A DNA stretch of 32,144 nt. It comes from Cryobacterium sp. (GTDB lineage Bacteria; Actinomycetota; Actinomycetes; Actinomycetales; Microbacteriaceae). Both the position numbers and the translations under genes were made by a program. The notes under the pieces were generated by a model that did no database searches, had not been told where the DNA came from, and saw nothing but the letters and a program-made list of their open reading frames with translations. This document shows, piece after piece, positions 7,260-17,958 of this stretch (its first letter is position 1; each line of letters opens with the position of its first letter). Where the stretch lies: positions 1 through 32,144 of the forward strand of contig NZ_JAODBG010000107.1 in NCBI RefSeq assembly GCF_025463825.1, read 5' to 3'.

Positions 7260-9401
7260 ATGCGCTGGAGTGGACAGGAACTGACAACCGAGCAGGCCGG
7301 GGCGCTCCCGGGACTGGCACGGCTGAACAACCTCGTGCGCAGCGTGCGCACCCCCGAGTTCGACGGCATCACCTTCCACGAGGTACTCGCCAAGTCAGCC
7401 CTCAACCGGGTGCCCGGCCAAAGCGCCATGCCCTTCGGCTGGACCATCAACCCCTACCGGGGCTGCTCCCATGCGTGCACCTACTGCCTGAGCCCGGAAA
7501 CCCTCATCCTGATGGCGGACGGCCGGCAGAAGCCGCTCTGGGAAGTGCGTGTAGGCGAGGCCATCATCGGTACCCGCACCGAGGGCGTCTACCGACGTTA
7601 TATAGAGACCACCGTTCTCGCCGCCTGGAACACCCGCAAGCGCGGCTATCGGATCACCCTCGGCGACGGCACCGAGATCGTCGCCAGCGGCGACCACCGC
7701 TTCCTTACTGAGCGTGGCTGGAAGTACGTCACCGGCGCCATGAGCGGCGCGGACCAGCGTCCCTACCTGACGCCGAACAACAAGCTGACTGGTTTCGGAC
7801 TCAACGGGCTGACGGAAACTACGCAGCCCCAATACTTCAAACCCGACTACCGCCGCGGGTATCTCACCGGAATGATCCGAGGCGACGGGATGATGATCTC
7901 CCGGGATTACCCAAGGCGATCCGGTGGCGGAAGTAAAGTGCGGTTGTTCAGGCTTGCGCTGGCCGATGTGGAAGCCCTCAACCGGTCGCGCCTATTTCTT
8001 GAGCAGGAGGGTGTGCTGACGCAGACTCGCCCGTTCGCTGTAGCTTCCGGAACCCGACGGGCCATGGCCTCGATCTATTCGGGCAAGGCTGCCAACTACG
8101 AACGGATCACAAAACTCATCCAATGGCCTGAAGCACCCGACGCCGATTGGCATGCGGGCTATCTCTCCGGGGTCTTCGACGCGGAGGGATCGTGCTCCCA
8201 AGGGGTACTGCGCATCAGCAACATGAACGTTGAAATCCTTGACAACATTCAGACGTCTATGGCGGCTTTGGGTATCGACCATGTGCTGGAAGCGGCGAGG
8301 CGGAATGGGGTTCGCTGTGTTCGAGTCACCGGTGGCCTTCCGATGCGATCGCGGTTCTTCAACTTGGTGGGCCCAGCCATCGACCGCAAGCTGTCCATCG
8401 CGGGCCGCGCCGTGAAGTCCGACGCCAAGCTGCAAATCGTCTCCATCGAAGACCTCGGCGCCACCATGGACATGATCGACATCACCACCGGCACCGGGGA
8501 CTTCGTCGCCAACGGCGTTGTCAGTCACAATTGCTTTGCCCGCCCCACCCACAACTACCTCGACCTCGACGCCGGCAAGGACTTCGACAACGAGATCATC
8601 GTCAAGGTCAACGTCGCCGAGATCCTCCGCAAAGAACTCGCCAAGCCCACCTGGGGCAAGCATCCGGTGGCGCTCGGCACCAACACCGACCCGTACCAGC
8701 GCGCCGAGGGCCGCTACCGGTTGATGCCCGGCATCATCGCCGCGCTCGCCGACTCCGGCACCCCGTTCTCGATCCTCACCAAAGGCACCCTGCTGCGCCG
8801 CGACCTCGACCTGCTCCGGGAGGCCAGCCGCCAGGTACCCGTCGACCTGGCCATGTCCATCGCCATCTACGACGACGAGCTGCAGCAGGCCGTCGAACCG
8901 GGCACCCCGTCCACCAAGGCCCGGCTCGCCACGGTCAGCGCCATCCGCAACCTCGGCATGGACTGCTCGGTGTTCCTGATGCCGATCCTCCCGTTCCTCA
9001 CCGACACCCGCGCACACCTCGACGAGGCCATGCGCCAAGCCAAGGCCGCCGGCGCTACCGGGGTTCTCTACAGCGCGCTCTACCTCAAGCCCGGGGTCAA
9101 GGAGTGGTACTTCCAGTGGCTCGAGCGTGACCACCCCGAGCTGCTGCCCCGCTATCGGGAGATGTTCAAACGCGGCAGCTACGCCCCCAAGGAGTACCGC
9201 CAGTGGCTGGCCGGCCGCATCCAGCCGCTGATGCGCGCGCACGGCCTCAGCCACCGCCGCGAAGACCCCGCCACCGGCGGCATCCTCTCGACCGCCCTCA
9301 CCGGCGCGCCCGTCGGCCCCACCACCGGGGCGGATGGGCCGCCCGCCGGCTCCCTGATCGCAGCCGAACTGCCCCCCGAAATCTCGCCCACCCTGTTTTG
9401 A
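7260..9401 (+). CDS. Rv2578c-family radical SAM protein containing an intein
   Basis: The 713-residue precursor has exteins of 364 residues, the size of Rv2578c-type proteins. The N-extein has the radical SAM iron-sulfur motif CSHACTY followed by a cysteine (C69, C73, third Cys), and the C-extein goes on with FARPTHNYLDLDAGKDFD. The family is related by annotation to spore photoproduct lyase-like enzymes, and its reaction is not established to my knowledge. The intein occupies residues 76-424 and splits the motif right before the third cluster cysteine, which is also the +1 splice nucleophile (C425). The start MRWSGQEL resembles the known family N-terminus. The ribosome site is weak. A perfect LexA box lies 8 bases upstream, so a DNA-damage role is likely. 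That role is inference. Confidence 0.93.
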   Translation: MRWSGQELTTEQAGALPGLARLNNLVRSVRTPEFDGITFHEVLAKSALNRVPGQSAMPFGWTINPYRGCSHACTYCLSPETLILMADGRQKPLWEVRVGEAIIGTRTEGVYRRYIETTVLAAWNTRKRGYRITLGDGTEIVASGDHRFLTERGWKYVTGAMSGADQRPYLTPNNKLTGFGLNGLTETTQPQYFKPDYRRGYLTGMIRGDGMMISRDYPRRSGGGSKVRLFRLALADVEALNRSRLFLEQEGVLTQTRPFAVASGTRRAMASIYSGKAANYERITKLIQWPEAPDADWHAGYLSGVFDAEGSCSQGVLRISNMNVEILDNIQTSMAALGIDHVLEAARRNGVRCVRVTGGLPMRSRFFNLVGPAIDRKLSIAGRAVKSDAKLQIVSIEDLGATMDMIDITTGTGDFVANGVVSHNCFARPTHNYLDLDAGKDFDNEIIVKVNVAEILRKELAKPTWGKHPVALGTNTDPYQRAEGRYRLMPGIIAALADSGTPFSILTKGTLLRRDLDLLREASRQVPVDLAMSIAIYDDELQQAVEPGTPSTKARLATVSAIRNLGMDCSVFLMPILPFLTDTRAHLDEAMRQAKAAGATGVLYSALYLKPGVKEWYFQWLERDHPELLPRYREMFKRGSYAPKEYRQWLAGRIQPLMRAHGLSHRREDPATGGILSTALTGAPVGPTTGADGPPAGSLIAAELPPEISPTLF
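7485..8531 (+). mobile_element. LAGLIDADG intein (349 aa) inside the radical SAM gene
   Basis: The element is in frame and begins at Cys76 (CLSPETLILMADG, block A). It has a block B-like stretch ASGDHRFLTERGW with H146, two LAGLIDADG motifs GYLTGMIRGDG (200-210) and GYLSGVFDAEG (300-310) about 100 residues apart, and ends VVSHN (H423, N424) before C425. All splice residues are present. The endonuclease keeps both acidic motif residues (D209, E309), so it may still be able to home. Base composition and codon use are visibly more AT-rich than the exteins (for example the run near 7600 and the 7870-8350 stretch), which supports later transfer. Confidence 0.95.
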
Positions 9402-9545: not shown

Positions 9546-10928
9546 ATGTCACTTGGGTTACCTGGGCACCTGGTTGAGGCAACACTGAGCCGAGCCCTGG
9601 CCCGCGCATCCCACTGGTTCGGCGTCATCTGCCTGGCCGGCGCGCTCGCCTCGGTGCTCGCGCTGAGCATGGCCCCGGTCACTGACCGGCTGCTGGCCAC
9701 CATCGCCGCGATCGTCGGCATGGGCGCCCTGCTCGCCGTCCTCGCCAAGTGGCGCACGGTGCCGCTCACTATCGCCTACCTGGTGCTCGGCGCCGCCTGC
9801 ACCTACCTGTTCACCGGCGCGGTGCTGGGCATGCCCGGTGTGTTCTCCTCGTCAGACCTGTTCCTCATCTCCCTGCCCAAGATGGCCCTGATCATGGTCG
9901 GCGGCGCCGGCTCCGGCGCTCTCGTCGGCGTGCTCTGGAGCACGGTCGGCTTCCTGTTCGCGGAGGTCGCCGCCACCCTCGCCGTGTCGCAGACCCCGGT
10001 GCCCGACCGGCCCGACGTGTTCACCATCGTCACCTACCTGATGCTGGTGGGTGTGATGCTGCTCGACGGCCTTACCCGCCGCACCGGTCGCGCCGCGCAG
10101 CCGGCCATCCACCGGGCCGTGCAGGACGACGAGGCCCGCACCCTCCGGCACGACTTCGACGTGCGCGCGATCGCGCTGATGCACGACACCACCCTCAACC
10201 AGCTCGTGTCGGTGGCCCGCGCCAAGCCCGGCCCGCTCAGCCGCGGCCTCGAGGCCGGCATCCGGGAGACCCTGCACACCCTCGCCGACCGGGACTGGCT
10301 CACCCACGTCGACGAGCGCACCGCGGCGGCGCCCGCCGGCAGCGACGGATGGCTGGCCAGCGCCGTGTACCGAGCCATCGACCGCAGCCGGGACCGCGGC
10401 CTCGTCGTCGACATCACCGGCGAGAAGGATGCCCTCGGGCGCCTCGACGCCGAACAGGACCGCGAGCTCGGCCTCGCCGTGCAGCAATGCCTCGTGAACG
10501 TGCTGCAGCACGCCGGCATCGCCGCCGCCGAAGTGGTCATCGACGCCGACGACGAGAACGTGTCGGTGATGGTGCTCGACGCCGGCAGCGGTTTCATGGA
10601 AGCCGAAACCGGCAACGACCGGCTGGGCCTGCGCCAGTCGGTGCGCAAACGCATCGAACGCCTCGGCGGCACCGTCGTGATCTGGTCCCGCCCCGGCGCC
10701 GGCACCTCCGTGCTGCTCACCCTCCCCGCCCCCGTTCCCGCCCCCGTTCCCGCCACCCTCTCCGCCGACTTGCCCCCCTCCGGACCACTTGCCCCGTCAC
10801 AGCAGGGCAACTCGTCCGCAACCGGGCAACTCGCGAATGCCCCCGCACCCACCCCCACCCCCGCGCCGGCCGCTCCCGCACCAACACCGGCACTCGCGGA
10901 CACTCCTGCCGATCAGGCCACCCCGTGA
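9546..10928 (+). CDS. Membrane sensor with histidine-kinase-like ATPase domain
   Basis: The protein is 460 residues from the ATG at 9546, which follows a good purine-rich site (GGAGAGG). Five to six membrane helices fill residues 22-175. A soluble part follows with LMHDTTLNQL (H213), in the place of the NarL-type phospho-acceptor helix. The ATP site has N-box QCLVNVLQHA (N318), G1 LDAGSGF (345-350) and G2-like PGAGTSV (383-389). The last 60 residues are a Pro/Ala-rich tail. It therefore looks able to bind ATP and perhaps to phosphorylate. Its stop overlaps the next gene's GTG by 4 bases, so the two are co-translated. The likely partner regulator lies at 13201, after tdk. Confidence 0.85.
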   Translation: MSLGLPGHLVEATLSRALARASHWFGVICLAGALASVLALSMAPVTDRLLATIAAIVGMGALLAVLAKWRTVPLTIAYLVLGAACTYLFTGAVLGMPGVFSSSDLFLISLPKMALIMVGGAGSGALVGVLWSTVGFLFAEVAATLAVSQTPVPDRPDVFTIVTYLMLVGVMLLDGLTRRTGRAAQPAIHRAVQDDEARTLRHDFDVRAIALMHDTTLNQLVSVARAKPGPLSRGLEAGIRETLHTLADRDWLTHVDERTAAAPAGSDGWLASAVYRAIDRSRDRGLVVDITGEKDALGRLDAEQDRELGLAVQQCLVNVLQHAGIAAAEVVIDADDENVSVMVLDAGSGFMEAETGNDRLGLRQSVRKRIERLGGTVVIWSRPGAGTSVLLTLPAPVPAPVPATLSADLPPSGPLAPSQQGNSSATGQLANAPAPTPTPAPAAPAPTPALADTPADQATP

Positions 10929-12301
10929 CCCGCCGCAGCCCCACCCAGCAGCGCCTCGACCCGCTGGGCACCCTCGCCGCGTGGCCGCTGGCCCCCGCCA
11001 TCGGCGCGGTCGTGCTCTGTTACTCGGTGATCGCCACCGTCCTGCAGTCCGACCAGGTGCACACCCCCCTCCTGGCCACCCTCGCCGTGATCGCCATGGC
11101 CTCCGCCGCCGCGACCTTGGTCATCGCCACCCGCCCGGCGCACTCCCCGTTCGGCGCCCGGATGCACCTGGTCATGGTCAGCCTCGCCGTGCTCGGCTAC
11201 CTCCTCGAAACGGCCAGCCGCTGGGGCGGCAACCAGGTCGTGCAAGACGACTTCGGCCCCATCGGCGTCGGCCTGCTGCTTCTCGCCCTGGCACCCTACC
11301 GGCCCTGGCGGGAGATCGCCCTCTCCGGCGCCATCGCCAGCGTCATCGCCATCGCCATCACCCTTCCGCAGTCCGGCAGCTACCGCACCGACGTGCCCGC
11401 CGCGGTGTACGCGATCGTCGCGGTCACCCAGATCCTGGCGCCGGCCGCGGCCGGCGCCGCGTATTCCCGCCGCATCGTCAGGTCCATCAAGCTCTATCAA
11501 ACGGATGCCCGCCGCGCCATCGTCGCCCGCACCGAGGAGGCCCGCGGCCAGCTGGCCCGCGCCGTGGTGGAGCAGCAGGTCACCGCCCTGAAGTCCGGCG
11601 TGATCCCGTTCCTCACCGATCTGCTCGACACGGGCACCGTCACCGCCCTCGACATCGCCCAGGCCGGCCAGCTCGCCGCGGACGTGCGCCGCACCCTCGT
11701 GGCCGAAGTCGACCGCACCTGGCTGGACTCGGTCGTCGCTCGGGAACGCGCCGCCCTGGCCGAACGCGGCACCCCCGGCCTGCTCGTCGTCGCCGACCCG
11801 GAGCACCGGGCCACCGTCTTCGCCGCCGAACAACGCGCCGCCACCGCGGCGCTGCTCGGCGCCCTCTGCGCCGCCACCGGTTTCGACCCGCACAGCCTGG
11901 TCGTGCAGATCACGGGCACCCCCCGCCGCACCCAGACCCGCACCCAGCCCGGCACCCCGACGAACCCCCGCGCCGCCGCCATCCGCCCCGACCTCGGCCA
12001 GAGCCCCCGCGGCCTCCGCGCCGGCCTTCCCGCCGCGGCCCCGGCGCACATCGACACCATCACCATCCAGGCCGCCCTGGACCTGCCGCCCCGCAAGGTG
12101 CGCGCGCTGCTGCGGCCCTACCTCGGCGTGATCCGGGTGGTGTTCGGCGCCGTGCGGGTCACCGTGCGCCGGCCTTCGCTCACCATCGAACTCGACGGCG
12201 TGCGCCCTGTCGACCCGGCCGCCGACACCCTGCCCGCCACCGCGACCCCGGCCACCCCGCTCGGGGTGCGCGCGCAGCGCCCTCCCCGCCAAGTACGCTG
12301 A
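10925..12301 (+). CDS. Membrane protein with degenerate kinase-like cytoplasmic part
   Basis: The 458-residue protein starts at GTG 10925 inside the previous gene's stop codon. About six membrane helices (residues 22-180) are followed by a helical segment (190-265) and a region that has the layout of a kinase catalytic half but lacks an N-box, a DxGxG and the glycine-rich lid. No phospho-acceptor histidine motif is seen. The part PFLTDLLDTGTVTALDIAQ to LLVVADPEH (229-294) lines up by eye with residues 721-783 of the fused sensor at 13848. An Arg/Pro-rich insert lies at about 331-370. It is probably a non-catalytic partner of the upstream protein. The function is inferred. Confidence 0.7.
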   Translation: MTRRSPTQQRLDPLGTLAAWPLAPAIGAVVLCYSVIATVLQSDQVHTPLLATLAVIAMASAAATLVIATRPAHSPFGARMHLVMVSLAVLGYLLETASRWGGNQVVQDDFGPIGVGLLLLALAPYRPWREIALSGAIASVIAIAITLPQSGSYRTDVPAAVYAIVAVTQILAPAAAGAAYSRRIVRSIKLYQTDARRAIVARTEEARGQLARAVVEQQVTALKSGVIPFLTDLLDTGTVTALDIAQAGQLAADVRRTLVAEVDRTWLDSVVARERAALAERGTPGLLVVADPEHRATVFAAEQRAATAALLGALCAATGFDPHSLVVQITGTPRRTQTRTQPGTPTNPRAAAIRPDLGQSPRGLRAGLPAAAPAHIDTITIQAALDLPPRKVRALLRPYLGVIRVVFGAVRVTVRRPSLTIELDGVRPVDPAADTLPATATPATPLGVRAQRPPRQVR

Positions 12302-12350
12302 ATCCGGCAGCAGCAGGCGCCACACGAACGCAGAGGCGGTACCGGCGGTA

Positions 12351-12986
12351 ATGGCGAAACTGTATTTTCGATACGGCGCGATGAACAGCGGCAAGAGCAC
12401 GTCCATGCTCCAGGCCGCCTACAACTATGAGGAGCGCGGCCACCGGGTGCTGCTGGCCAAACCGTCCATCGACACCAAGGGCGACCGCGGCATCCTCTCC
12501 CGCCTGGGCGTCACCCGCGGCGTCGACTTCCTGCTCATCCCCGAGGCGGATGCGTACGCCCTGTTCCAGGAGCACCGCGCCGACACCCTCGCCGGGAGCG
12601 GCCTGGACGTCAGCGCCCTCCTCGTCGACGAGGCCCAGTTCCTCACCGAAACCCAGGTCGACGACCTGCTGCGCATCGCGATCATCGAGAACGTTCCGGT
12701 GCTGGCGTACGGCATCCGCACCGACTTTCAGACCGTCGCGTTCCCCGGCAGTCGCCGGCTGCTCGAGGTGGCGCACAGCCTGGAGGAGCTCAAGACCATC
12801 TGCCGCTGCGGCCGGAAGGCCGTGTTCAACGGCCGTCAGGTCAACGGGGTCTTCGTCTTCGACGGCGACCAGGTTGCCATCGACGGCGTCGAGGTGACCT
12901 ACGAGTCGCTCTGCGGCTCCTGCTACCTCGAGGAGAGCCACGGCGTGCTGAACAACCGTCGCCGCGGACCGGTGCAGCCGATATGA
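12351..12986 (+). CDS. tdk: Thymidine kinase
   Basis: The 211-residue type II thymidine kinase phosphorylates thymidine to dTMP in the salvage pathway. The Walker A motif GAMNSGKST is at residues 9-17, the Walker B-like LLVDEAQFL is near 90-98, and the lasso/zinc site has CRCG and CGSC pairs that form the structural Zn knuckle. Length and order fit the bacterial family. The ATG at 12351 has a GGCGG site close by. It lies between the two sensor genes and the response regulator, 49 bp after the former. No functional tie to the signalling genes is evident. Confidence 0.96.
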   Translation: MAKLYFRYGAMNSGKSTSMLQAAYNYEERGHRVLLAKPSIDTKGDRGILSRLGVTRGVDFLLIPEADAYALFQEHRADTLAGSGLDVSALLVDEAQFLTETQVDDLLRIAIIENVPVLAYGIRTDFQTVAFPGSRRLLEVAHSLEELKTICRCGRKAVFNGRQVNGVFVFDGDQVAIDGVEVTYESLCGSCYLEESHGVLNNRRRGPVQPI

Positions 12987-13013
12987 CCGGCGAAAGCCCG
13001 GCCCGGCGGAGCG

Positions 13014-13047
13014 GGGGCGCTCAATCGAGAACCGTCGAGAGCGCCCC
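13014..13047 (+). terminator. Possible hairpin terminator after tdk
   Basis: GGGGCGCT (13014-13021) pairs with AGCGCCCC (13040-13047) around an 18-base loop, 28 bases after the tdk stop. No T-run follows, so intrinsic termination is uncertain. A smaller hairpin, GGGCcgaaaGCCC-like, lies near 13098. Confidence 0.35.
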
Positions 13048-13200
13048 ACGCCAGCCCCCCGGCTGTTCCCCACACTCAGAGTAGGGAAGCGCCGACCGGG
13101 CCGAAAGCCCTTACTTATCAGGGCACCCACTCCGGGGGACAGGTGCCACCCACGCAGCACCCCCGTCCGCACTCCGACCAGCTCCATGAAAGAGCACCGC

Positions 13201-13851
13201 ATGCACCGCTACCGGGTCGCCCTGATCGACGATCATGAGATCGTGGCGCGCGGTTTCGCCGGGCTCTTCGCCACCATCCCCGACATCGAGGTGGTGGCCA
13301 CCGTCGCCACCGTCGCAGAGCTGCGGGCGCTGGTGCCCGGCGGCCGGGTCGACCTGGTCATCCTCGACCTGCGGCTCTCCGACGGCTCCACCGTCAGCGA
13401 CAACGTCGAGGGCCTGCGCGCCACCGGCGCCCAGGTGCTCGCGTTCACCGGCGGCGACGACGCCGTGCTGATGCGGGCGGCCGCGCGCGGCGGCGTGCTC
13501 GGCGTGGTGCGCAAGTCCGAACCCACCGAGGTGCTCCTCGACGCCGTGACCCGCGCGGCGGCGGGGGAGACCATCGCCTCCACCGAGTGGGCCGCGGCAC
13601 TGGATGGCGACCCAGACCTGGCCGACGCCGGCCTCAGCCCGCGCGAGCGGGAGGTGCTCTCCCTCTACGCCGCCGGCGCGAAGGCGCCGCTGGTGGCCTC
13701 GCACACGGGCCTGTCCGAGCTCACCGTCGTCGACTACATCCGCCGGGTGCGCTCCAAGTACGAAAAGGTCGGCCGGCCGGCGAACACCAAGATCGACCTC
13801 TACAAGCGGGCGCTGGAAGACGGCATCCTGCCCATCCCCGGCCGGTCATGA
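13201..13851 (+). CDS. LuxR/NarL-type response regulator
   Basis: The protein is 216 residues from the ATG at 13201, which has AAAGAG 6 bases upstream. An in-frame ATG at 13186 would add MKEHR. The N-terminal receiver has LIDDHE as the acidic pocket, the phospho-acceptor Asp in LVILDLRLSDGS, and K in VVRKSEPTE. The C-terminal part has LSPREREVLSLYAAGAK and the LuxR-type helix-turn-helix with TVVDYIRRVRSKYEKVGR, so it should bind DNA when phosphorylated. The stop overlaps the ATG of the fused sensor by 4 bases (ATGA), the usual layout of a two-component pair. It may also serve the sensors at 9546 and 10925. Confidence 0.92.
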   Translation: MHRYRVALIDDHEIVARGFAGLFATIPDIEVVATVATVAELRALVPGGRVDLVILDLRLSDGSTVSDNVEGLRATGAQVLAFTGGDDAVLMRAAARGGVLGVVRKSEPTEVLLDAVTRAAAGETIASTEWAAALDGDPDLADAGLSPREREVLSLYAAGAKAPLVASHTGLSELTVVDYIRRVRSKYEKVGRPANTKIDLYKRALEDGILPIPGRS

Positions 13852-16379
13852 TCACGCCGGCGCCGACCGAGCCGACCGTTCCGACCGACCCCGGCGGCCC
13901 GGCCGCGCCCGCCGACCCCACCAACTCCGCCGACCCCGCCGACCCGGCCAGGCCGACCCCGTTGGCGACCGCCAATCTCACCCGCGTGCTCTGCATCGCC
14001 CTCGCAGCGGCCAGCGTTATCTTCGGCGCACTCTCCCTCGGCTCCTTCCTCGCGCAGGGCTGGTACCCCACTCCCATGCTGGCCGGGACGGCGTGGCTGT
14101 TCGCATTCGGTCTGCCCGTTCTCCTGGGCCTCGGCAGCCGGGTCGCACCGCTGTGGATGCTGCAGGGCAACGTCGCGCTCCAGGCCGCGAGCTACATTCT
14201 GATCTGCCTATTCCTTCTGCTGGCCGGCGCCGGCCCGCTGCCCGAAGGTGCCGAGATTCCCTGGGTGATCACCTACACCGGGGTGCCGTGCGTGGCGGTG
14301 GCCGCGTTCGCCGGCCGCAGAACGGCCTGGGCGTTCACGGTGATGGCCACCGGGCTCAGCGGCGCGATCCGCTTCGCGACCACCACCGAGCACCTGCCGG
14401 TGCTGGTCGGCCTGGCCGACGGCCTCTACTCGCTTCTTCTGGTGAGCGTGTTCGTGGCCCTCACCCTGGCCGCCCGCCGCGCGGCCGCGCGGGTGGACGA
14501 CACCACCCTGCTCACCCGGCAAGCCGAAGCCCGCCGGGCCGCCCGGGTGGCGCGCCGGCAGGAGCGCCTGCGCATCGACGCCCTTGTGCACGACAGCGTG
14601 ATCTCCACCCTGCTCATGGCCGGCCTCGGCCGCAGCCCGCTCCCGGTGGTGTCCGAACACGCCGCGAAAACCCTGCGGCAGCTCGACGCGCTCCGCGAAC
14701 CGCCGGTGCAACCGGTGGTGCTGGTCTCCGACCTCCTCCGCCGGCTCAGCCGGCTGGCCGCGCAGATCGCCCCGGATGCGGTCGTGCGGGTCGACGATTC
14801 GGCCCGCCCCGGCGACGGTGCGGTCATCGAACGCACCGTGCCGGCTGTGGCCGTGGCGGCGATGCTGGGCGCCGCGGGGGAGGCGCTGCGCAACTCAGTG
14901 AACGCCGCCGCCGGCCCGCGCGCCGCCTCCGGCCCGGCCCGCCGGGTTCGCCGCAGCGTCACGCTGCTCTCCACCACCGACGGCTGCCAGATCACCGTCA
15001 GTGACGACGGCGTGGGCTTCGACCCGGCCGCGGTGCCGCCGGAACGCCTCGGCATCACCCAGAGCATCCTCGGCCGGATGCAGCAGGTGCCCGGTGGCGC
15101 CGCGAACCTGCGCTCAGCCCCGGGCCACGGCACCGACGTCATCATCGTGTGGGCGCCGGAACGACTGTTCGTGGGTACCGCCCCGGCCGCGGCCGAGCCG
15201 TCTCCCGCCGTCCACCGCGGCTCGGCCGCGCACCAGAACCCCGCTGATCGCCACCCCGCCGAGCGCCGCGACCCCGGCGACCCCGGCGACCCCGGCGACA
15301 CCGGCAGCGCTCCCGGCTTCATCGACCGCCGGTCGGTGCCCCGGCGAGTTGTCGACGCGGCCCTGGACCCCGTCGAGCCGCCCTCCCTCGCCCAGACCCT
15401 CGGCCTGTCCGCCGTCACCACGCGCAGCATCCTGGCCCTGTTCGTACTCGTGCACGGCCTGCTCGCCGTGATCGACCTCGAGCCCGGCCGGCCCACCCAG
15501 CTGGTGCTCGGTGCCTTCCTGCCGATTGTGGTGGCGGCGTGGGTGGCGCTGGTGCGTGGCTTCGACGAACCCTTCCCGCGCCCGCGGGCGGCCCTGATCC
15601 TCGGCCTCTGCGCCGTCGGCGCGATCCTGATGTTCGCCTACCTGCCGCCGAACAGCGCCGCCCCGTTCGCGCACTGGCACCTCGGTGCGATCACCCTGAT
15701 TCTCGTGGTGCTCGGCATCCGCGGGCAGATCGGCTGGGCCTGGCTCGGTTACCTGGGCCTCGCCGCCCTCGCCGTGGGCTGGGCCATGGCCACCGCCCAG
15801 TCGCCGCTGGCCGCGGTCAACCTGATCAGCCGGCATGCCGGCACGCTGCTCGCCGGCACTCTGTTCGTGGTGGGCCTGCACCGCACCGAACGCACCCTCT
15901 GGGTGCTCACCGCCAATGACATCGCCCGGGCCACCCGCGACGCCACCCTGGTCGCCGCCATCGAGGAACGTGAGGCCGAGCTGAGGCGGGTCAACGCTCT
16001 CGCCCAGCCCACCCTGCACCGCCTCGCCGAGCCGCGCCCCCTCACCGACGCCGAACGCGCCGAGTGCCTCCTCATCGAGGCGGGCCTCCGCGACGCCATC
16101 CGCGGCCGGGTGCTGTTCCTCGAACCGGTGATCACCGCCGTGGCCAACGCCCGGCAGCGCGGCGTGGAGGTCACCGTGCTCGACGACAGCGGCGACACCC
16201 CGCCCGACGCCCTGCCCGCCTTGGCCCGCACCGTCGCCGACGTGCTCGACACCGTCGACGCCGGCCGGGTCACCATCCGCGTCCTCCCCGCCGGCCGAGC
16301 GGATGTGGCCACCCTGGTCATCGAGTCCGGCACCAACCGCATCCTTTCGGTCGGCCCGGCCGGAGCCCTGACCACTTAG
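13848..16379 (+). CDS. Tandem sensor: histidine kinase fused to a degenerate kinase-like half
   Basis: The 843-residue protein starts at ATG 13848 inside the regulator's stop. After a Pro/Asp/Ala-rich N-terminal tail, residues 45-210 hold about six membrane helices. The catalytic half has LVHDSVISTL (H249), N-box EALRNSVNAA (345-354) and G1 DDGVGFD (386-392) with a GHGTDV lid. A low-complexity linker with (DPG)3 at about 475-486 follows, then a second set of about six helices (522-678) and a cytoplasmic part (690-843) with no histidine motif, N-box or G-boxes. The two halves mirror, in order, the separate genes at 9546 and 10925. Kinase activity of the first half is likely. The role of the second is inferred to be regulatory. 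Confidence 0.85.
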   Translation: MITPAPTEPTVPTDPGGPAAPADPTNSADPADPARPTPLATANLTRVLCIALAAASVIFGALSLGSFLAQGWYPTPMLAGTAWLFAFGLPVLLGLGSRVAPLWMLQGNVALQAASYILICLFLLLAGAGPLPEGAEIPWVITYTGVPCVAVAAFAGRRTAWAFTVMATGLSGAIRFATTTEHLPVLVGLADGLYSLLLVSVFVALTLAARRAAARVDDTTLLTRQAEARRAARVARRQERLRIDALVHDSVISTLLMAGLGRSPLPVVSEHAAKTLRQLDALREPPVQPVVLVSDLLRRLSRLAAQIAPDAVVRVDDSARPGDGAVIERTVPAVAVAAMLGAAGEALRNSVNAAAGPRAASGPARRVRRSVTLLSTTDGCQITVSDDGVGFDPAAVPPERLGITQSILGRMQQVPGGAANLRSAPGHGTDVIIVWAPERLFVGTAPAAAEPSPAVHRGSAAHQNPADRHPAERRDPGDPGDPGDTGSAPGFIDRRSVPRRVVDAALDPVEPPSLAQTLGLSAVTTRSILALFVLVHGLLAVIDLEPGRPTQLVLGAFLPIVVAAWVALVRGFDEPFPRPRAALILGLCAVGAILMFAYLPPNSAAPFAHWHLGAITLILVVLGIRGQIGWAWLGYLGLAALAVGWAMATAQSPLAAVNLISRHAGTLLAGTLFVVGLHRTERTLWVLTANDIARATRDATLVAAIEEREAELRRVNALAQPTLHRLAEPRPLTDAERAECLLIEAGLRDAIRGRVLFLEPVITAVANARQRGVEVTVLDDSGDTPPDALPALARTVADVLDTVDAGRVTIRVLPAGRADVATLVIESGTNRILSVGPAGALTT
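15270..15305 (+). repeat. 9-bp tandem repeat (GACCCCGGC)x4 coding DPG linker
   Basis: Three exact GACCCCGGC units and one GACACCGGC encode (Asp-Pro-Gly)3-Asp-Thr-Gly in the linker between the two halves of the fused sensor. The length could vary by slippage without breaking the frame. Confidence 0.8.
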
Positions 16380-16720
16380 CCCCAATCGAGCGCCCCGCTG
16401 GCAGGGGCCCCGATGCGCAACTCCTGCAAAATCTCCACAAGTGTCCGAAACAGCTGAATACAGGCCGTTTCGACGGATGCAGCAGGAGTTCTGCATCGGT
16501 CCGCATGCCGTCCACCACCGGTTGAGCCGGTCGAGATCTCGCGCGCCGCCCCTAAGCCAATAGTGAAGCGTCTGCCTGACCACGGTGAGTTCACAAGACG
16601 GCGGCGTCACCTCGACGGCCTAGCACCGGCTGGGCTGCCTCAGGTCGATGCGGCGCCGCCGGTGCAGCCGGGAAGCACCGTGTCAGCGCTCTTCGAAAAG
16701 TAGGCCAGTAACGCTCGGGT
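16380..16720. other. Intergenic stretch with a long inverted repeat, no gene seen
   Basis: About 340 bases lie between the sensor gene and the IS30 remnant. GATGCGCAACTCCTGCA (16412-16428) is nearly the reverse complement of GCAGGAGTTCTGCATC (16482-16497), so the RNA could fold into a long stem with about a 53-base loop. It may end the sensor operon or be a small non-autonomous repeat. The rest shows nothing recognisable. Confidence 0.4.
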
Positions 16721-16745
16721 GGTTTCAAGCCGTCATTGCAACACC
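16721..16745 (+). repeat. Probable left terminal inverted repeat of the IS30-family element
   Basis: GGTTTCAAGCCGTCATTGCA (16721-16740) followed by ACACC resembles ends of actinobacterial IS30 elements as I remember them, and lies 10 bases before the transposase start, as expected. The right end is missing. Confidence 0.45.
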
Positions 16746-16754
16746 TCCACAAGG

Positions 16755-17691
16755 ATGGAGGGCATGTCGTCATCGTCATCGCGGCGTGTGAAGAAGGGGC
16801 CGGGGCGTCGTCCGCAGTCGGCCAAACGTGAGAAGTTCATGGAGCTCAGGGCGCGCGGATGGAGCATCCGAGCGGCAGCGCGGGAGGTGGGGGTGTCCCG
16901 GTCTTCTGCGACGAACTGGGCCAGCGGGCAGAAGAAGTATCGCAACGGGGTGCTTGTGGGGTTTGTGCCTCCGCTGGACCGGTTGACGGTGCGAACGATC
17001 AGTACCCGGTTCCTTTCGCAGGACGAACGCATCAGCATCGCTGATTTGCACCAGAGCGGGGTGAGCATTCGGCAGATTGCCCAGACGCTTGGGCGAGCAC
17101 CGTCAACAATCTCCCGTGAGCTGCGACGGAACACCACGGCCGGTCACGGCTACCGTCCCTTCGACGCCCACCAGCGGGCGACTGCGCGCCGTGCCCGCCA
17201 CCACCGCCGACGCGCTCTAACAACCAGGATCAGCGCTCATGCGCCCATCCCGGCTGGCACCGTTCCGGCGGTCACCGCTACGGACCGGACGCGACCACCG
17301 GCGCGCTCACCAGCGTGGAGAGCGCCACCGTCCACGATTCCAGCAGCCCATGCTGACCATTCACCAGCGCCCATTTCCTCCTGAAGATCGATCTCAGGCG
17401 GGCAACTGGGAGGGTGATCTCATTACCGGTCGCGATCAGGGTTCGGCCATTGGAACTCTGGTCGAACGACAGACCCGACTCGTTCGCCTTCTCCACCCGC
17501 CGCTGCGCGACAGCGACGCACTCCACGCAGCGTTGAAAGCGAGGATGGAGGATCTACCACCCGGGCTGATGCGCTCCATCACCTGGGATCAGGGCACGGA
17601 GATGGCTCGGCACCTCGAGATCGCGAAGACGCTGAACACACGAGTGTATTTCTGCGACTCTCATTCGCCTTGGCAGCGGGGCTCCAATGAA
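16755..17691 (+). pseudogene. IS30-family transposase, internally deleted and truncated
   Basis: The N-terminal part has a first helix-turn-helix (SIRAAAREVGVSRSSATNWA) and the IS30 helix-turn-helix ISIADLHQSGVSIRQIAQTLGRA-type segment ending STISRELRRN. After RRALTT (about 17220) the frame changes and roughly 50 expected residues are missing. It resumes at 17239 with MRPSRLAPFRRSPLRTGR, then the DDE core GNWEGDLITG, WDQGTEMARH and DSHSPWQRGSNE. It is cut just after the catalytic Glu, where IS481-type sequence begins at 17692. The element cannot move by itself. Confidence 0.88.
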
Positions 17692-17855
17692 CCGGCTGCG
17701 CCACATTCTCGGTAGCGGCGCACCCAGCGGTGGGCGCATGGGCGTGAGATGCCGAGCTCTTTGGCGACGTGGGCGACGGGGCGCTTATCCAAAACCACAC
17801 GTTGGCTGAGGATAAGTTTCCCGCGCATGGTCAACGGCGGATTAGGGTGACCCAT
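17692..17855 (-). pseudogene. IS481-family transposase, N-terminal fragment
   Basis: From the ATG at 17855 the fragment reads MGHPNPPLTMRGKLILSQRV, then VAHVAKELGISRPCAHRWVR as a helix-turn-helix, and RYRECGAAGS. This is the normal N-terminus of actinobacterial IS481 transposases. The rest, including the whole DDE domain, is replaced by reversed IS30 sequence (LEPRCQGE then stop). Confidence 0.85.
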
Positions 17856-17958
17856 GGGAACCTCCGGTGCTTGTGACGGCGTTAGACCCCTCCACTGAGC
17901 CCGGAGGTTCTCCCATTGCACAAGCCCAGAAGTGTCACCCAGGTTATGGCCCAGTACA
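17692..17958 (-). mobile_element. IS481-family remnant (5' end) joined to the IS30 remnant
   Basis: On the minus strand the element starts with a probable terminal repeat TGTACTGGGCCATAACCTGG (17958 to 17939), continues through about 100 bases of leader, and holds the first 54 codons of a transposase before it stops at the IS30 junction (17691/17692). The outer end lies one base from the stop codon of the GntR gene. Confidence 0.6.

Follow-up and report, generated by a model that had tools for sequence, protein, structure and literature searches.

Sensor kinases joined to a degenerate kinase-like partner in Cryobacterium: one fused pair, and one split pair without a regulator of its own

A 32,144-nucleotide stretch of Cryobacterium sp. 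(contig NZ_JAODBG010000107.1 of assembly GCF_025463825.1; the whole stretch is hereafter the window) carries two neighboring sensor pairs, each joining a sensor histidine kinase part (A) to a degenerate kinase-like partner (B): a split pair (pair 1) and a fused pair (pair 2). The genes lie on the forward strand in the order A1, B1, a thymidine kinase gene (TDK), a response regulator (RR2), and the fused A2B2. A1 (9546..10928, +; 460 residues), the membrane sensor histidine kinase of pair 1, starts at an ATG at 9546 that is backed by the conserved N-terminus MsLGLP, and the codon of its phospho-acceptor His213 falls at 10182..10184 (+), a position derived from the residue number. B1 (10925..12301, +; 458 residues) starts at a GTG and overlaps the A1 stop by 4 bp. 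TDK (12351..12986, +; Pfam TK, 5.2e-32) is a constant neighbor of the locus, accompanying B1 at 51 of the 52 Cryobacterium loci and at all 50 counted loci outside the genus. RR2 (13201..13851, +) is the LuxR/NarL-type response regulator of pair 2 (Response_reg, 3.7e-10; GerE, 1e-6), in which D10, D11, D56, T83, and K105 were picked out by eye and presumably fill the usual functional roles. A2B2 (13848..16379, +; 843 residues) consists of a kinase half, A2 (residues 1-460; 13848..15227, +), and a degenerate half, B2 (about residues 507-843; 15366..16379, +), recognized by its profile match to B1; the linker at residues 440-506 is modeled with a predicted local distance difference test score (pLDDT) below 50.

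By their motifs, A1 and A2 of the window's species are membrane histidine kinases with complete acceptor-His and ATP motifs. The DHp helix holds an acceptor His followed by Asp in both (H213-D214 in A1, H248-D249 in A2), and the N, G1, and G2 ATP motifs are conserved among the A proteins, being represented by N318, D345, G347, and G349 in A1 and by N349, D386, G388, and G390 in A2. The Pfam domain HATPase_c is found in A1 at residues 306-396 (9e-7) and in the fused protein in the first half only (344-437; 2.4e-5, with 25.2 bits, just below Pfam's 26.4 cutoff). A DxGxG motif is present in 174 of 178 A proteins (109/110 of A1 type and 65/68 of A2 type); in the fused proteins of the named loci, HD and DxGxG occur in the first half in 19 of 19, and the second half is free of DxGxG in 18 of 19. 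We take the A proteins to be of the NarL/DesK type. The best-scoring named family for A1 is the MacS family sensor kinase (NCBIfam NF047322; 53.9 bits, residues 16-394), although this score is far under that family's 300-bit cutoff. The Gln of DxxxQ, a presumed phosphatase motif, would lie at the fourth residue past the HD Asp; it was seen in only 2 of 178 A proteins (with one gap), and phosphatase activity may therefore be absent from these proteins or supplied differently.

B1 gave no Pfam or NCBIfam match at E up to 1, and the B2 half gave no credible match in either database. Among 20 members of the set labeled A3, only scattered Pfam or NCBIfam matches appeared, at 0.001 or worse and each in one or two members, and two B profiles searched against the sequences of solved structures reached at best E 0.05, with unrelated proteins. 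Across 99 B1-type and 61 B2-type sequences, no conserved His was found in the DHp-like helix, which carries instead a near-invariant Pro (99/99 of B1 type, at Pro228 in B1; 59/61 of B2 type). DxGxG was found in 1/99 B1-type and 7/61 B2-type proteins; of these eight occurrences, the seven that could be located lie away from the G1 position—four in a strand loop well before it, two in the membrane part, and one in the DHp-like helix.

In an AlphaFold2 (AF2) model of B1 (pLDDT 79), the membrane bundle is accompanied by a long helix at 159-236, another helix at 241-264, and an alpha/beta sandwich; the place expected for an ATP lid is disordered. Histidine-kinase CA and DesK structures are among the first Foldseek matches of this model, all of them weak. 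The model of the fused A2B2 protein has a pLDDT of 85 and a predicted template modeling score (pTM) of 0.75, and its matches in the Protein Data Bank are led by HK853 (5e-6), although these matches are not attributable to one half. Rather than being featureless, the cytoplasmic part of B is thus predicted to hold a kinase-like dimerization hairpin and a lid-less ATPase-like sandwich. The proteins of the Spo0B/ChpT kind combine a DHp with a degenerate CA, and ChpT is among the weak fold matches of the B1 model; a role of B as a phosphotransferase of that kind is nevertheless extremely improbable, given the near-invariant Pro and the missing conserved His in the DHp-like helix.

B1 and B2 are members of one homologous family. 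Their profiles aligned over 297 columns at full length with a P of 1.2e-12 in hhalign (reversed control 2.5e-3), and the cytoplasmic parts alone aligned over 121 columns with a P of 2.7e-5 (reversed control 0.56). The A and B profiles were built from the matches of single-sequence searches without overlap between A2 and B2, the B1 profile being enlarged with loci from the family; once one or two rounds have run, iterative profile searches blend A with B, and labels were hence taken from single-sequence searches. Reversed profiles served as the control, and since full-length reversed pairs gave P values down to 2e-5, weaker values were not taken as proof. At full length, B2 is also related to the kinase parts, with a P of 5.9e-10 against A1 (reversed control 9e-5) and 3.3e-9 against A2 (reversed control 2e-5). 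B is, through B2, a distant relative of A, as the whole-length order and the predicted structure indicate; it is most likely a paralogue in which the membrane bundle and a DHp-like hairpin persist but the acceptor His and the ATP-binding motifs are gone.

The split pair and the two halves of the fused protein are therefore two copies of one A+B unit, as an earlier note on this DNA, made from the sequence alone, had proposed on the grounds of a shared order, an intact ATP site in the first parts only, and second parts lacking any kinase motif. The stretches that had been spotted by eye as common to the second parts are indeed paired in the B1-B2 alignment (PFLTDLLDTGTVTALDIAQ...VRR with PTLHRLAEPRPLTDAERAE...LRD). 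The profile comparison that the note had suggested turned up homology, and neither of the outcomes it had named as speaking against its idea—no homology or structural match between the second parts, or clear catalytic motifs in them—was encountered.

The pairing of A with B is general, and such pairs are common in actinobacteria. A B1-type partner was recognized in 161 of 299 Microbacteriaceae genomes (47 of 85 genera) in a survey with a B-only profile, and a class survey with a B2-type profile recovered 31 of 394 genomes (9 of 137 genera); both surveys scored at most five candidates per genome, and misses are likely. In a set of loci examined around B, A adjoins B in 64 of 64 (62 from the B-only query and two extra regions, L315 and L316); those outside Cryobacterium comprise the best-ranked survey matches and about one listed match per genus and are not a random sample. 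In a separate set of 35 named loci, A is directly upstream of or fused to B for 42 of 42 recognized B domains, a count that was taken from the locus table with the broken B1 of L063, in two pieces, entered once. The query for these named loci was the fused protein, which favors pairs, and the B-only survey is the independent test. The named carriers include Gordonia, Rhodococcus, Williamsia, Nocardia, Tsukamurella, Propionicicella, Herbiconiux, and Frigoribacterium and, more weakly, Mycobacterium; the second halves of the Mycobacterium and some other fused proteins (L082, L084, L086, L090, and L115) have a weak match or none to the pure B profile, their assignment as B resting on a mixed A+B profile. 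Cryobacterium loci allow the 4-bp overlap of A1 and B1 in 51 of 52 cases, and other loci in 46 of 50. This systematic pairing supports the idea of a kinase and pseudokinase pair that was duplicated, with one copy split and the other fused.

Further arrangements were seen along the way. The window's own genome has two more pairs of A with a degenerate partner, each with its own regulator, in locus L141 (6605-9655; contig C115; order RR-A-B) and locus L243 (4015-7223; contig C38; order A-B-RR), the second partner being recognized only weakly. Three Gordonia loci (L068, L076, and L077) show a tandem A-B-A-B order, with no response regulator recognized up to about 10 kb on either side. In several Mycobacteriales loci (L066, L069, L070, L073, L074, and L075), a short regulator-like match (scores 66-87) just after B is possibly a protein with a DNA-binding part only.

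Sensor kinases are usually regarded as homodimers. For the present family, a bipartite sensor is considered fairly probable, in which the A kinase stands permanently with B, likely as a heterodimer with B as the allosteric or sensory subunit, and in which pair 1 probably came to work free of phosphotransfer in most of the genus after the loss of its regulator. A and B would dimerize via their DHp hairpins, the fused A2B2 forming one intramolecular pseudo-dimer, so that fusion would make the heterodimer obligatory. B would act as the input or allosteric half that switches A, and A would provide catalysis; A2 would then phosphorylate RR2. That B modulates A is plausible. Coevolution is suggestive of a contact in the same region: among the 40 strongest covarying A1-B1 pairs, 14 are DHp-DHp pairs (1.8 expected), with 6 of 40 in the outgroup rows plus the window and 8 of 40 within the genus.

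Several results weigh against a heterodimer of related halves. At full length, A1 and B1 compare weakly (2.3e-4; reversed control 4.7e-3), and comparisons of the cytoplasmic parts alone are weak for A1 and B2 (2e-4; control 0.21) and for A2 and B2 (0.003) and give nothing for A1 and B1 (0.083); the kinship of A and B therefore rests mainly on the whole-length order via B2 and on the model. None of the Foldseek matches of the B1 model is below 1e-3, the best being the VanSA CA domain (0.05) and DesK (0.17), with designed helical proteins interspersed or following. As for covariation, the A-TDK and B-TDK controls also show a DHp bias (15/40 with 7.3 expected and 15/40 with 9.9 expected, respectively), single top z-scores of these control pairs are above those of A and B, and the set is shallow, with an effective number of sequences (Neff) of 63.

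These weak cytoplasmic comparisons, together with the missing DHp and CA matches of B in Pfam, are consistent with an ordinary homodimeric kinase A acting alone, B being a membrane sensor or scaffold transcribed along with it but not dimerizing with A through a DHp. A-like kinases accompanied by a regulator and without a recognized B were also found in other families (L144, L155, and L156), so the A fold can do without B in principle. Such an account is nevertheless judged unlikely, because the model of B contains a DHp-like hairpin and a CA-like sandwich, the whole-length homology of B2 with A goes beyond the reversed controls, the DHp-DHp pairs are enriched, and many genomes encode A and B as a single covalent chain.

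The history of the locus bears on the relation between the two pairs. Two genomes of another genus (g212) show the arrangement A1-B1-RR1-TDK-RR2-A2-B2, in which pair 2 is split and each pair has a regulator of its own. Among the counted loci from outside Cryobacterium, all of them chosen for TDK, a response regulator separates B1 from TDK in 50 of 50; these are the 64 loci minus L308 and L314 (repeats of G481 and G495), nine lower-scoring pairs without TDK in the stretch (L302, L303, L305-L307, and L310-L313), L301, which ends at a contig end, and the extra sets L315 and L316. The named loci L085, L092, and L100 agree with this placement. Within Cryobacterium, RR1 was found at its place between B1 and TDK in 0 of 51 loci, where the gap has a median of 34 bases (one up to 792), and elsewhere in the genus a close copy (57-65% identity) was found in only 3 of 57 genomes (G004, G023, and G030), at a separate site. 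A tree of regulators separates RR1 from both RR2 and the L243 regulator, on long branches that leave the placing unsure. Thus, the locus probably once held two complete neighboring systems, RR1 then being lost in the ancestor of Cryobacterium, which explains why one regulator was seen for two pairs. As a side observation, L315 and L316 (from G004 and G023, respectively) each hold an extra A-B-RR1-like set that kept the acceptor His, with no TDK in the stretch examined.

Losses also occurred in the other direction. Ten Cryobacterium species that carry Asn at the A1 acceptor position keep A1B1 without RR2 or A2B2, as established by locus inspection, RR2 searches, and whole-genome searches with the fused protein (G074 and G077 included); about five losses account for them, at least three on well-supported branches and all inside the Asn clade. 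In G075, where the A1 contig ends early, RR2 and A2B2 are present on another contig. Conversely, G001, G021, and G027 have RR2 and A2B2, with A1B1 not detected, and neither A1B1 nor RR2/A2B2 was detected in G020. Pair 2 itself is mostly fused in the genus and is split in G006, G071, and G021. Since losses run in both directions, the pair 1 and pair 2 systems are separable, and they were lost independently. The earlier picture of one regulator for two pairs is thus partly wrong: only RR2 is found at the window locus, but pair 1 has its own RR1 elsewhere; the further suggestion that both pairs and the single regulator make up one sensory unit is not supported, given the gene order of g212 and the independent losses.

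The main surprise lies beyond the window's species, in pair 1 of the rest of the genus. A1 is present in 52 of 57 Cryobacterium genomes (in G026, the contig starts at B1), and the acceptor position is His in 14 of these 52 species, the window's included, Gln in 15, and Asn in 23. The HD motif is therefore missing from 38 of 52 A1 proteins, and in every genome of the genus that carries A2 at the same locus, the His of A2 is kept. The outgroup has His in 53 of 53 rows (52 readable in the joint tree and L287 read directly). A tree built without the acceptor column traces Asn and Gln to a single change each, and a careful tree agrees; in the joint tree, both changes fall inside the Cryobacterium clade, which makes up 15.4% of the total branch length. 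Because the loss of RR1 is common to the whole genus, it preceded the losses of the acceptor.

The ATP motifs of A1 remained in place. N318, D345, G347, and G349 are intact in 54 of 54 aligned rows, with G384 varying in a few, and of the 15 Gln proteins, the 14 with a readable sequence all have DxGxG and RLG (G032 is split). An apparent loss of G361 in one Gln species was rejected, the glycine being present in all of these 14 readable sequences. The ratio of nonsynonymous to synonymous substitution rates (dN/dS), taken as medians over pairs with dS of 0.1-1.0, indicates purifying selection in the Asn clade (0.20 for A1 and 0.21 for B1), including the ten Asn species without RR2 and A2B2 (0.17 and 0.20); in the His clade, the medians are 0.19 for A1 and 0.35 for B1.

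From this conservation and selection, it is proposed, tentatively and with a confidence that stops just short of calling it probable, that pair 1 in most Cryobacterium has become a transmembrane signaling device derived from a two-component system and working without phosphotransfer: an A1 with ATP motifs and without the acceptor His, standing permanently with a B1 devoid of motifs and maintained by selection in the absence of the acceptor and of a cognate regulator and, in ten species, of the neighboring system as well. With the cognate regulator lost in the Cryobacterium ancestor, phosphotransfer would have become dispensable; the acceptor His would then have been replaced twice, by Asn and by Gln, with the ATP motifs and B1 retained, and pair 1 in most of the genus would signal by ATP-dependent conformation and protein contact. 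The window's species itself still has His213 in A1, without an adjacent regulator of its own.

Two results count against such a maintained device: the median dN/dS values are higher in the Gln clade (0.43 for A1 and 0.52 for B1), and the ATP motifs are only modestly more invariant than the rest of the CA part (hypergeometric P 0.015). The raised Gln values would suit a decaying relic of a two-component system left behind by regulator loss, as would the missing RR1, the loss of the acceptor in 38 of 52 species, and, in G030, G032, and G062, an A1 or B1 broken up between two open reading frames, for which sequencing error is possible. Decay is, however, quite unlikely as a general account, considering that the Asn clade has a median dN/dS of about 0.2, also where RR2 is absent, that 52 of 57 genomes retain A1, that the ATP motifs and the 4-bp overlap were kept, and that Asn and Gln each characterize an entire clade.

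A different possibility is that pair 1 was rewired to the adjacent A2B2 and RR2, with one regulator serving both pairs. Adjacency is consistent with it, and position 242 of A1, which is Asp in 96% of the outgroup rows, is mainly Thr in Cryobacterium (every row of the His clade, 91% of the Asn rows, and 47% of the Gln rows), a shift that could reflect altered regulator specificity; that it marks a change of partner is a guess. Rewiring seems unlikely all the same, for the ten Asn species keep A1B1 without RR2 and A2B2 after about five losses, and G001, G021, and G027 have RR2 and A2B2 with A1B1 not detected.

Elements of these arrangements are known from other systems, and in the literature consulted, mostly outside subscription papers, no description of an A+B sensor family was found. 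RetS and GacS of Pseudomonas, which are not known to be encoded together or to include a partner devoid of motifs, are one point of comparison. There, one kinase regulates the other by hetero-oligomerization, as cited in two accounts (PMC12675982; PMC9491836). FasB and FasC of group A Streptococcus each bind the other and not themselves in two-hybrid assays (PMC12675982), and may serve as an experimental precedent for a heterodimer of the A:B type. As described there, the FasB/FasC-FasA system likewise has two co-transcribed sensor-kinase-like membrane proteins and one regulator, but it divides the jobs, with the kinase domain in FasB and the likely acceptor H246 in FasC (PMC12675982), whereas here A has all the motifs, B has none, and the two are often fused. 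In Corynebacterium glutamicum, a pseudokinase variant of ChrS promotes signaling by the paralogous HrrS, and native ChrS and HrrS heterodimerize in two-hybrid assays (PMC9491836). These are also actinobacterial sensor kinases in which a pseudokinase version aids a paralogous kinase; however, that variant is a laboratory-evolved frameshift mutant, and the two systems are separate (PMC9491836), whereas the pseudokinase here is old and adjacent or fused.

For pair 1, the nearest parallel is DivL of Caulobacter, a protein with a histidine-kinase fold in which the acceptor His is replaced by Tyr, the other boxes are kept, and function does not need kinase activity (PMC4211667). By sequence, the Asn and Gln forms of A1 would class as pseudokinases of the DivL kind, having the acceptor replaced and the other boxes retained. 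The two differ in that DivL reads phosphorylated DivK and acts on the CckA pathway (PMC4211667), whereas A1 has a further pseudokinase as its neighbor and no longer has a regulator of its own.

A kinase with an inactive twin appears as a standing arrangement across a large actinobacterial group, the twin having no Pfam or NCBIfam model in the copies searched, and the existence of split and fused forms makes the heterodimer idea directly testable. The Cryobacterium locus offers a natural experiment in which the regulator was probably lost once and the acceptor His twice later, with the ATP motifs retained, and it poses the question of what use a histidine kinase unable to pass on phosphate makes of ATP.

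Two features flank the locus. Upstream, a radical-SAM protein (7260-9401; Pfam 5.2e-15) is interrupted by an intein-like insert over residues 115-424 (Intein_splicing, 4.1e-6, under the Pfam cutoff; LAGLIDADG_3, 1.6e-5) that starts, by eye, after a CSHACTYC motif. Downstream of A2B2, transposase-like pieces extend over 16719-17921, with HTH_38 in 16719-17381 (9.7e-21), the integrase core rve in 17239-17712 (9e-9), and HTH_23 on the minus strand in 17661-17921 (6e-7), and are presumably parts of an IS30-type element.

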